Source of the DNA: an uncultured Bacteroidales bacterium
GTDB lineage: Bacteria; Bacteroidota; Bacteroidia; Bacteroidales; Muribaculaceae
Direction: 5' to 3'
Assembly: GCA_947573135.1 (NCBI GenBank)
Contig: CANPDU010000033.1
Span: 1-38,865, forward strand
DNA length: 38,865 bases
Part shown: positions 12,981-23,419 of the stretch, in pieces
Numbering within the stretch: position 1 is the first letter of the stretch
How the letters are laid out: every line of letters starts with the position of its first letter
Notes under the pieces: generated by a model
Database searches by the model: none
What the model saw: only the letters and a program-made list of their open reading frames with translations
What the model was told of the DNA's origin: nothing
Made by a program: the position numbers and the translations under genes

Positions 12981-14117
12981 ATGAAAAGAATGATTCTCCT
13001 TCCCGCCATCGCACTCGGTGTTATGACGGCATCAGCTCAAGCAATTGAGCAACCCAGTTTATTTGATAATGTATCGATTGGTGTCAACGGTGGTGTCGTC
13101 ACCCCGATGGACAATCACCCGTTCTTTAAATCAATGCGTCCGATTGTGGGCGTGACAATTGACAAGATGGTCACTCCTAATTTCGGAGTAGGTGTTGAAT
13201 CATTGTTCGGCATCAATACGTCGCAGTTCAATGGCATCGGCCACAGTTCAACGGCATTTGATGATTCTTATGTAGGAATCTACGGCAAGATCGATCTTTT
13301 TAATCTGTTCGGCGGCTATCAGTGTGCTGTGCGTCCGTTTACAATCGAAGCACAGGCAGGTGCCGGCTGGGGTCATTATTACATCAATAAGGCCAACGGA
13401 AGTGATTGGAACTACTTCGGAACAAGAGCGGGACTGAATTTCAGGATCAACACGAGCGAGCGCTTTTCAGTCAATATCCAGCCATCAGTGCTTTTCAACA
13501 TGAACGGTCATGATTTTGATCAGAGTACAGCCGGTTATGCCCGCAAATCAGCTAAATTTATTCTTACAGCCGGTGTTTCATACCGATTTGGTGATGGATT
13601 TGAGTGTGTGCGTCCGTATGATCAGGCCGAAGTGGACGCTCTTAACGCAGAAATCAACGCGCTTCGTGGAGCTGTGGCCGACGCATCTGTGATGACAGCT
13701 GCGGCAGAAGCAACAGCCGCCGATCTGGCTACGCAGTTACAAGCATGCAAAGATCGCAAGCCTCAAGTTGTAAAAGAGGTTTCAAATAATCTCAGTTCAG
13801 TCCGCTACGTGTTCTTCCGCAACGGTTCGTCGACTATCACAGCCGATCAGCAGCCTAACATTGAAATGATTGCCGCTTATCTGAATAATCATCCCGGATC
13901 TAAGGTTGTGGTCAAAGGCTATGCGTCGAAAGACGGTAATTATGATTTCAACGTTAAACTTGCACAGAAACGAGCAGACGCAGTCAAGACAGCGCTTATC
14001 AAGAAATATAAGATTGCATCCAGCCGAATCGTGGCAGAAGGTCAGGGTATCGGTGAAATGTTCGAAGAGCAGTCTTGGAACCGAGTAAGCATCTGTACAC
14101 TTGAAGAGTCTAAATGA
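12981..14117 (+). CDS. OmpA-family outer-membrane protein with peptidoglycan-binding domain
   Basis: The ATG at 12981 gives 378 aa with a signal peptide ending ASAQA; the in-frame TTG at 12972 is less likely. Residues about 22-205 form a beta-barrel domain rich in alternating strands. A short alpha-helical, Ala-rich linker with heptad character follows (about 210-255). The C-terminal OmpA-like domain (about 265-375) contains the NYDFNVKLAQKRADAVK motif and the region that binds diaminopimelate in peptidoglycan. The protein should anchor the outer membrane to the cell wall. The gene is monocistronic with a strong terminator. The upstream ~185 nt is AT-rich and shows no exact TAnnTTTG match. 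Confidence 0.9.
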   Translation: MKRMILLPAIALGVMTASAQAIEQPSLFDNVSIGVNGGVVTPMDNHPFFKSMRPIVGVTIDKMVTPNFGVGVESLFGINTSQFNGIGHSSTAFDDSYVGIYGKIDLFNLFGGYQCAVRPFTIEAQAGAGWGHYYINKANGSDWNYFGTRAGLNFRINTSERFSVNIQPSVLFNMNGHDFDQSTAGYARKSAKFILTAGVSYRFGDGFECVRPYDQAEVDALNAEINALRGAVADASVMTAAAEATAADLATQLQACKDRKPQVVKEVSNNLSSVRYVFFRNGSSTITADQQPNIEMIAAYLNNHPGSKVVVKGYASKDGNYDFNVKLAQKRADAVKTALIKKYKIASSRIVAEGQGIGEMFEEQSWNRVSICTLEESK

Positions 14118-14142: not shown

Positions 14143-14181
14143 GAATCACCCACGGCAATAACGGCCGCGGGTGATTCGTTT
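14143..14181 (+). terminator. Terminator after the OmpA-family gene
   Basis: The stem GAATCACCC (14143-14151) with GGGTGATTC (14169-14177) has additional GC pairing near the loop, and GTTTT follows. Confidence 0.85.
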
Positions 14182-14221: not shown

Positions 14222-14500
14222 ATGGATTTAAGTTTGACAGATATATTCGGTTACCTGGCCAGCCTTTGTATGGTGTTAGGATATTTGCCTCAGGCTATCA
14301 TGACAATAAGAACCCGGGACACTGAGGGTATTTCAATGATGACTTTTTCAATGATGGGACTCGGTTCTGTGTTTTTTGTGATCAATGGTCTTATGTGGCA
14401 CAATTATCCGCTTGCCATCACTAATATCATTACAGCCGGCTGTTCCGTAATAATATTCGGAATAAAGATATATAACGATCATTTCAAAAAGGCAGGGTGA
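14222..14500 (+). CDS. SemiSWEET sugar transporter (PQ-loop/MtN3 family)
   Basis: The 92 aa protein has three membrane helices (about 8-27, 38-58, 65-85), the triple-helix bundle of bacterial SemiSWEETs. These dimerise to form a bidirectional sugar uniporter in the inner membrane. The diagnostic PQ motif is in GYLPQAIMTIRTRDTEGIS, and a conserved Asn lies in the third helix (ITNIIT). The substrate is unknown. It follows the OmpA-family gene but is separated from it by a terminator. A candidate antiparallel small RNA ends about 25 nt beyond its stop. Confidence 0.88.
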   Translation: MDLSLTDIFGYLASLCMVLGYLPQAIMTIRTRDTEGISMMTFSMMGLGSVFFVINGLMWHNYPLAITNIITAGCSVIIFGIKIYNDHFKKAG

Positions 14501-14525: not shown

Positions 14526-14627
14526 AAAAAATAAATGCGACTACTCTCACGAGCGGCCGCATCTCTAACCTATGATTCACTTATTAATTGTTGTGCTTTT
14601 ATAAAAATAAGTACTTCCTATGTTTGC
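14526..14627 (-). ncRNA. Candidate structured small RNA of about 100 nt
   Basis: No coding gene explains this interval. On the minus strand a consensus promoter fires into it, and it ends in a hairpin with T6. The 3' hairpin pairs 14562-14551 with 14546-14535: twelve positions with two G-U wobbles and one C-A mismatch, capped by CTC-GTGA-GAG, a GNRA tetraloop. Both the wobble pairs and the tetraloop exist only in the minus-strand RNA, which fixes the orientation. The U-tract (TTATTTTTT) follows at 14534-14526. A second stem pairs ACTTATT (14612-14606) with AATAAGT (14585-14579). A 12-codon frame starting at 14563 and running through the hairpin is the only coding alternative seen. No known RNA family was recognised. 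Confidence 0.6.
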
Positions 14628-14631
14628 ACAG

Positions 14632-14662
14632 CAAAGGTAAAACGAATTTTAGTAAAAACAAA
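14632..14662 (-). promoter_or_regulatory. Consensus promoter driving the candidate small RNA
   Basis: The minus strand reads TTTG (14662-14659), a 19-nt spacer and TACCTTTG (14639-14632), an exact match to the Bacteroidetes consensus. It faces away from the LpxA-like gene and toward the 3' end of the SemiSWEET gene, where no minus-strand coding region begins. Confidence 0.8.
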
Positions 14663-14707: not shown

Positions 14708-14749
14708 AAAAAAGCAACCGAGGCAGCGTATATGTGCGGCCTCGGTTGC
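14708..14749 (-). terminator. Terminator of the efflux/LpxA-like operon
   Basis: On the minus strand GCAACCGAGGC (14749-14739) pairs with GCCTCGGTTGC (14724-14714) and T6 follows (14713-14708). It lies 25 nt after the LpxA-like stop codon. Confidence 0.9.
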
Positions 14750-14773: not shown

Positions 14774-15562
14774 TTATTCGTCGAAAAACTTATCGGCAAC
14801 AATCTTGAGATTGTTGTCGCGGATGAATGCAAGTATTTCGTCACGGACCGGACACGGCTCAATGTCGGCTTCGATGCGCTTGAGAGCATTGAACACTGTC
14901 GTGGAACACTGATATATGTGGCGGTAGGCTTTTGCTGCTACGTCGATTTCGTCTTCAGTAAACTGACCGCCTTTTCTCATCACAATGGCGTTTACGCCAT
15001 AATAAACAGCGGGATTATGGGCGATAATAACAAAAGGAGGAATATTAGAAGAGACGCGTGTACCCCCTTTAAGCAGGGCATAGCGTCCCATATTGACCTT
15101 TTCGTTGACGATGGCGTTAGACGAGAGTATCGAACCTTCACCTATAACTGCGTCGCCGGCTACTGTCGCGCCGTTGCCAAGGACGTTTCGTCCGACAACA
15201 TGTGTGTCGTGTCCTATATGTGCTTCAGCCATGATAAAACATTTGTCACCGATACGAGTGCCGCCCTGAGAGTAGATGCCTCGGTTGATTATTACGTTTT
15301 CGCGTATGACGACTTCATTGCCGATGTAACAGAAAGATTCGACTCCTTTCCAACGGAAATCCTGAGGGTCGGCGCCTACGATTGCGCCCTGATAGACTTT
15401 GCAGCGGTTGCCCATGCGTGTTCCGTGCATTATGCTTGCGTAGGGCATTATTTCACAGTTGTCGCCGATCTCGACATTTGCGTCGATATAAGCAAACGGA
15501 TGTACGGTAACGTTGTTTCCGAGCTTTGCAGCAGGATCTACGTATGCTAATGGACTAATCAT
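14774..15562 (-). CDS. LpxA-family UDP-GlcNAc acyltransferase, divergent active site
   Basis: The 262 aa protein is close in length to E. coli LpxA (262 aa). Left-handed beta-helix hexapeptide repeats fill residues 1-185, and a helical C-terminal part (about 190-262) resembles the LpxA acceptor-binding region. LpxA transfers a 3-hydroxyacyl chain to UDP-GlcNAc, starting lipid A synthesis in the cytosol. AEAHIGHD supplies H115 and H118, which align with E. coli H122 and catalytic H125. However, E. coli H144 aligns with D137 and H160 with N153, so two conserved histidines are missing. It could be a second, specialised acyltransferase rather than the housekeeping LpxA. It lies 35 nt after the outer-membrane efflux gene and before a strong terminator, so it is probably the last gene of that operon. 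Confidence 0.78.
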   Translation of the reverse strand: MISPLAYVDPAAKLGNNVTVHPFAYIDANVEIGDNCEIMPYASIMHGTRMGNRCKVYQGAIVGADPQDFRWKGVESFCYIGNEVVIRENVIINRGIYSQGGTRIGDKCFIMAEAHIGHDTHVVGRNVLGNGATVAGDAVIGEGSILSSNAIVNEKVNMGRYALLKGGTRVSSNIPPFVIIAHNPAVYYGVNAIVMRKGGQFTEDEIDVAAKAYRHIYQCSTTVFNALKRIEADIEPCPVRDEILAFIRDNNLKIVADKFFDE

Positions 15563-23388: not shown

Positions 23389-23419
23389 CAAAATTAAGCA
23401 TAGTTTTTCATTTGGCAAA
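23389..23419 (-). promoter_or_regulatory. rpsU promoter
   Basis: The minus strand reads TTTG (23419-23416), a 19-nt spacer and TAATTTTG (23396-23389), an exact consensus match. Initiation near 23384 gives a leader of about 48 nt. Confidence 0.85.

Follow-up and report, generated by a model that had tools for sequence, protein, structure and literature searches.

A predicted small RNA family of Muribaculaceae with a nearly invariant linear element and two genomic arrangements

Functionally studied small RNAs of the Bacteroidota come mainly from Bacteroides thetaiotaomicron. GibS of this species is described as an RNA of 145 nt with its seed in the first 30-50 nt and a non-canonical promoter, expressed most strongly on N-acetylglucosamine (PMC7366714, PMC11697453). 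The members of the FopS family are reported to have the same linear seed and to be driven by canonical sigma-ABfr promoters, with 14 copies in one genome, and comprise intergenic and antisense RNAs as well as one derived from a 3' UTR (PMC11697453). MasB is described as narrowly conserved, with interaction sites at positions 41-50 and 69-74 (PMC10994844). The sigma-ABfr consensus of Bacteroides itself is stated as TAnnTTTG at -7 and TTTG near -33 (PMC7366714).

Here we analysed a stretch of 38,865 nucleotides (the window) from an uncultured Bacteroidales bacterium of the Muribaculaceae, where an earlier note had proposed that the minus strand encodes a new small RNA between a SemiSWEET gene and an LpxA-like gene. 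This proposal is strongly supported by sequence, i.e. by promoter boxes, orientation, terminator and homologues. Searches with Rfam 15 at gathering and relaxed thresholds returned no family at cutoff for the predicted RNA, the window giving only a tRNA, and the predicted RNA had no Rfam match at four homologous loci either. Among the open-access papers found, judged by titles and abstract openings, none names this RNA.

Locus, promoter and fold

Table 1. Features of the predicted small RNA locus and its neighbours in the window.
Feature	Position	Strand	Basis
-33 promoter element TTTG	14659..14662	-	sequence read; sigma-ABfr consensus as described in PMC7366714
-7 promoter element TACCTTTG	14632..14639	-	sequence read, promoter-motif count, box frequency at homologous loci
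Predicted small RNA	14526..14626	-	fold and homologues; 5' end placed 6-7 nt past the -7 box, 3' end taken as the T run
Linear element AATAAGTGAATCATAGGTTAGA, candidate seed; stops in all three forward frames (by eye)	14564..14585	-	
Terminator stem-loop: 12 pairs and one mismatch, GTGA loop, covarying	14534..14563	-	
T-rich terminator tail TTTATTTTTT	14526..14535	-	sequence read
Apparent terminator ending the lpxA-like gene upstream: stem of 11 bp, T6	14708..14749	-	by eye
LpxA-like acyltransferase (PF00132, PF13720), upstream neighbour	14774..15562	-	Pfam
SemiSWEET-like protein (PQ-loop, PF04193), convergent neighbour	14222..14500	+	Pfam

The exact minus-strand promoter that had been described, TTTG-N19-TACCTTTG, is present at 14662-14632, and the GNRA-capped terminator (14563-14526) follows at the spacing of about 100 nt given previously. 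This putative promoter fits the sigma-ABfr consensus of Bacteroides. Matches to TTTG-N18..20-TAnnTTTG occur three times in the 38.9-kb window, compared to 0.57 expected from a first-order Markov model, and 1% of Markov copies of the 273-nt intergenic region contain the motif if either strand is counted. One of the other two matches, with the boxes TTTG-N-TACCTTTG, starts at 163, just upstream of a minus-strand tRNA-Ser (GCT) gene at 14-103, and can serve as an internal standard when the promoter consensus of the source genome is judged; the third is located at 23419 on the minus strand.

A separate terminator for the LpxA-like gene upstream had also been postulated. By eye we indeed identified an 11-bp stem on the minus strand (14749-14714) with a loop of 14 nt, followed by six T, an apparent terminator that would set the small RNA apart from read-through. 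The simple terminator scan has a loop limit of 8 nt and therefore does not list this site; the 3' stem of the predicted RNA is missing from the scan output as well, probably due to its mismatch. On the other side of SemiSWEET, between this gene and a gene ending at 14117, lies a strong inverted repeat of 14 pairs (14143-14177), which the scan lists as a minus-strand terminator-like site and which may instead end the plus-strand gene.

The RNA from 14627 to 14526 folds at -23.8 kcal/mol (z -3.3), with one of 200 shuffles being as good. Its terminator stem (14563-14534) has 12 pairs and a single C x A mismatch around the GTGA loop; if the closing G-U is counted, the number of wobbles is three instead of the two given in the earlier note. 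The second stem of 7 bp in the 5' half (ACTTATT/AATAAGT) exists and is again predicted to form in L173 and L205, the closest relatives, but it is no general feature among the 49 predicted folds of homologues. An own promoter, an own terminator and a non-coding sequence, the sequence features of an intrinsically terminated bacterial small RNA, were all found at the window locus.

Conservation, covariation and spread

A BLAST search with a 196-nt region (E ≤ 0.01) matched 40 of the 49 genomes of the genus, among them the one that contains the window; a few matches are weak and devoid of the core (e.g. in G001). Thirty sequences from this search were aligned with MAFFT before any model was made. 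Common to them is the linear stretch AATAAGTGAATCATAGGTTAG, after which come a hairpin with varying letters and a T-rich tail; 8 of the 12 pairs of the hairpin are changed on both sides, 99.4% of the cells are paired, and none of 500 shuffles was as good. From this alignment we built the covariance model R1. Scanning public genomes for the 17-mer AAGTGAATCATAGGTTW gave at least 117 loci, and the 80 of these that were scored with R1 split cleanly into 52 at 54.5 bits or more and a remainder at 29.8 bits or less, the latter including 17-mers in Pelagibacteraceae that look like chance. The titles of R1-positive records include Heminiphilus faecis (L098), Muribaculum sp. (L132) and Candidatus Limisoma (L158) as well as Duncaniella sp. 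(L174, 70.6 bits) and Candidatus Amulumruptor (L198, 69.2 bits). Some positive metagenome records carry other titles, namely Staphylococcus sp. (L126), Clostridium sp. (L143), Lachnospiraceae (L115), Bacteroides sp., Prevotellaceae and Porphyromonadaceae; as two of them, L126 and L115, match contigs from genomes of the window's family in their positions, such titles were taken as unreliable.

The final locus set was derived from 181 core matches, 131 of which passed a stem-energy filter, 75 of these being distinct; L200 and L202 were removed by eye because the GNRA terminator was absent, leaving 73 loci. Together with the diverged locus L261 these yielded 74 sequences, in whose alignment, which was fitted to R1 and so leans to this model, 11 of the 12 terminator pairs are changed on both sides (169 such cells) with 98.4% of the cells paired. 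Covariation was as high in none of 500 shuffles, and structures slid by 1-3 columns pair in at most 47.8%. All 74 loops start with GNRA, 56 having exactly four letters and 18 being one letter longer, which supports the minus-strand reading of the earlier note.

The stem contrasts with the adjoining element in its letters: 55 distinct 5' stem arms are found next to AAGTGAATCATAGGTT, 15 of whose 16 positions are invariant in the 73 loci, the sixteenth being kept in 72, an invariance that is overstated because most loci were found by requiring this string. Variants with one change occur, for example in G440, G464 and G408, and the element of L261 reads AAATCATAGGTT. Another variant, AAGTTTATCATAGGTTA, is present in G395, G403 and G419, together with the exact element in one of the three genomes, and may represent a paralogue or chance. 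The distance from the element to the stem differs by single bases among loci which, together with a stop codon in each frame, argues that the element is non-coding. A 12-codon frame, MRPLVRVVAFIF, can be read by eye from 14562, but the same stops and spacing shifts, and stem letters that are free while their pairing is kept, make a conserved small peptide extremely unlikely. The predicted RNA begins with a part that varies, continues with a linear element of 16-22 nt that hardly changes and closes with the terminator hairpin. We regard the predicted RNA as a real, conserved and covariation-supported small RNA family of Muribaculaceae.

To survey its spread we used a broader model, R2, at E ≤ 1e-6. 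The search of related genomes that the earlier note had named as a check was positive, the terminator stem covarying and 108 of the 297 family genomes being matched, with 74 of the 204 genomes of good quality and 21 of the 30 genera, some of the matches having been used to build the model; the family was presumed to be Muribaculaceae from record titles. At this threshold 189 of the 297 genomes were unmatched, nine genera had no match (g190, g197, g198, g199, g201, g206, g207, g209 and g210), and g3 was matched in one genome only. Each matching genome has one copy except G524, where two copies with equal scores (G524:C21 and G524:C30) may be due to duplication or an assembly artefact.

R1 matched 49 of the 295 genomes of an order sample at E ≤ 0.1, none of those outside the family exceeding 41 bits; three family genomes scored 72-86 bits and a fourth, G187, had no match. 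Among 30 family genomes without a genus-BLAST or 17-mer match, R1 gave 17 at E ≤ 0.05, the best at 41.5 bits. G599 is a record with the title Prevotellaceae; in its family R2 (E ≤ 0.001) matched 20 of 201 genomes, of which one reached 73.8 bits and none of the others exceeded 43.7 bits. We read the letters of nine weak matches of the order search, ten of the 30-genome search and five of the G599-family search. Judged by their letters, L261 of the 30-genome search is clearly a diverged true copy and L263 of the same search may be another; the others look like ordinary GNRA-tipped terminators. As the weak matches are mostly of this kind, the E-values of these models come out too small where a genome is rich in terminators, and scores were trusted from about 48 bits upwards only. 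GNRA-tipped terminators such as CTCGTGAGAG are found across the order (L067, L073, L077, L260-L267 and L286-L290), so that a covariance model covering the terminator will give false matches up to near 40 bits. The 73.8-bit match in G600 is a full copy directly after a NagB-PIG-L gene, and may reflect a native contig, a misbinned contig or a misplacement of G600 itself.

Among described families, the Prevotella-2 RNA (RF03043) has a similar length and likewise a GNRA-tipped terminator with an internal mismatch. Its model aligns end to end with the predicted RNA, including a similar GCUCGUGAGAG terminator tip, yet the score of 17.7 bits (E 4.4) is far below the gathering cutoff of 72.1 bits, similar tips occur elsewhere in the order, and linear part and neighbours differ: in L284, a real copy of RF03043 (90.1 bits), the linear element is absent, and the flanking frames are methyltransferase-like on one side and Mrp/ApbC-like on the other (named by reading). 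That the predicted RNA is a Muribaculaceae branch of Prevotella-2 RNA is thus very unlikely. A search for RF03043 itself gave matches in none of the 295 order genomes, where the control was also silent so that this is no sign of absence, and in none of three single genomes, where the control matched once, below cutoff, in Sulfolobus. With stricter filters Prevotella-2 RNA was found in one of the 201 genomes of the G599 family (L284, in G750) and seems narrowly spread in this sample.

Independent genes and NagB-PIG-L 3' UTRs

The flanking genes differ widely among the 73 loci, as expected for a trans-acting RNA, and a role in SemiSWEET or lpxA expression is therefore unsupported. Of the two modes of action considered in the earlier note, interference with the convergent SemiSWEET transcript and action in trans, the latter is favoured. 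The genes do converge in the window (L001) and in three close relatives (L155, L168 and L173), but in the other 69 of the 73 loci the nearest downstream frame is a different one and the RNA is nevertheless kept, rendering interference very improbable.

A nagB-type gene is found in the flank at 22 of the 73 loci. At 13 of them the core is preceded at 22-142 nt by the end of a NagB-PIG-L fusion gene (PF01182 and PF02585) with the same orientation, at eight nagB lies 217-291 nt upstream in divergent orientation, and at one further locus nagB is located downstream. A fourteenth UTR locus, L193, is cut at the edge, the gene being visible in its longer copy L039, via which it was moved into the UTR class (the counts before were 0 of 13 versus 49 of 55, p 9e-10).

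We then counted TAnnTTTG boxes within 150 nt upstream of the core, leaving out five of the 73 loci with too little upstream sequence. Overall 49 of 68 loci have a box, compared to 7% expected in letter shuffles. None of the 14 UTR loci has one, whereas 49 of the 54 other loci do (Fisher p 9e-11, which ignores shared ancestry, seven UTR loci being from one genus); 13 UTR loci were checked up to 800 nt where the sequence allowed, again with no box. The UTR form occurs in g194, g195, g196, g203, g205 and g208, and boxes in g1, g2, g4, g185, g186 and g189; five loci with a box and one with too little sequence are without genus placement. Sharing of an mRNA terminator and lack of an own promoter, which characterise 3' UTR-derived small RNAs, were hence found at 14 loci in six genera, while the window locus has its own promoter. 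In the window's genome the fusion protein matches nothing but a NagB-type frame (34% identity), and the RNA seems to persist there without a NagB-PIG-L gene.

The 14 promoterless loci could also be read as a cis-acting stability or termination element in the 3' UTR of the NagB-PIG-L mRNA, with the independent copies being relics. Such relics would hardly be expected to look like the independent copies, which retain the element, the covarying stem and, in all six box-bearing genera, promoter boxes, nor would the window genome, with nothing closer to the fusion protein than the frame described above, be expected to keep the RNA; we consider this explanation improbable, although within the genera that have the UTR form the RNA may act purely in cis. 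The arrangements suggest that the ancestral home of the RNA is probably the nag locus. Tentatively, one regulator may alternate within one family between a processed NagB-PIG-L 3' UTR and a self-promoted gene that is retained even after NagB-PIG-L has been lost, its 16-nt targeting element remaining frozen, and might form a hub coupling amino-sugar use to a regulon.

Possible mode of action and comparison with known systems

A variable 5' part, a frozen element, a terminator and changing neighbours together suit a trans-acting pairing RNA, and from these sequence features we consider it reasonably probable that the Muribaculaceae have a family of small regulatory RNAs which pair in trans and whose origin is tied to amino-sugar metabolism. 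The window RNA would be transcribed from its own sigma-ABfr-type promoter and end at the intrinsic GNRA-loop terminator, and its linear element, with AAGTGAATCATAGGTTA as candidate pairing stretch, would pair in trans with one or more mRNAs, like GibS, FopS and MasB in Bacteroides. In genera with the UTR form the RNA would be processed from the mRNA, and its level would track amino-sugar metabolism. The sequences themselves show conservation, covariation, promoter boxes and the two arrangements, from which we infer transcription, processing, trans action, the amino-sugar link and which of the two forms, UTR or independent gene, came first.

Searching 48 genus genomes with a wobble-complement pattern of the element gave 157 sites, self-matches included, versus 65 for the reversed pattern, a control that loses dinucleotides, so that no enrichment is claimed. 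In the 20 site contexts that were read there was no recurrent start site, and the sole recurrent gene, coding for an ECF-type sigma factor in four genomes, was rejected as a target since the match is explained by a conserved protein motif. Duplexes with the start regions of nagB and NagB-PIG-L were no better than shuffles (z between -1.9 and 2.1), and the accessibility of the element (mean unpaired 0.55) was not distinguishable from that with a shuffled 5' part (0.53, p 0.14).

Sixteen almost unchanged positions, a usually single copy and no convincing target would also agree with a protein-binding site, the RNA titrating or guiding an RNA-binding protein, e.g. an RRM-1 protein of the RbpB type, instead of pairing with mRNAs. 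In titrating RNAs, however, the site is usually repeated many times, whereas it is present once per RNA here, and we regard this possibility as rather unlikely. RbpB of Bacteroides is described as preferring single-stranded regions of its RNAs (PMC11697453), which speaks in favour of this possibility.

The analysis provides a covariation-supported RNA family of Muribaculaceae with a covariance model and a fixed element to mutate. Its two-arrangement history is the most interesting part of the finding: the 3' UTR form and the independent form of one RNA offer a natural comparison, and how small RNA genes emerge from 3' UTRs, or turn into them, can be put to a direct test inside a single family. 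The 3' UTR-derived small RNAs of Enterobacteria share the terminator of an mRNA; the predicted RNA differs from them in that it also stands as a separate gene elsewhere in its family, in genera other than those with the UTR form.

Compared by their descriptions, MasB and the predicted RNA are both intergenic and about 100 nt long, MasB acting by base-pairing (PMC10994844). With FopS, as described, it would have in common the short length, a linear seed, a sigma-ABfr promoter and a 3' UTR-derived form, but it is normally present in one copy per genome and not in 14. Like GibS it would be a conserved intergenic small RNA of gut Bacteroidales with a terminator and a link to N-acetylglucosamine or amino sugars. 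GibS, according to its description, has a conserved unstructured seed; its counterpart here would be the conserved linear element, whose predicted accessibility is similar with the native and a shuffled 5' part. GibS is a Bacteroides RNA of 145 nt with a non-canonical promoter, and its amino-sugar link is one of expression, that of the predicted RNA one of location. The expression of GibS on N-acetylglucosamine and the nag location of the predicted RNA form an attractive parallel, which we take as a parallel only.
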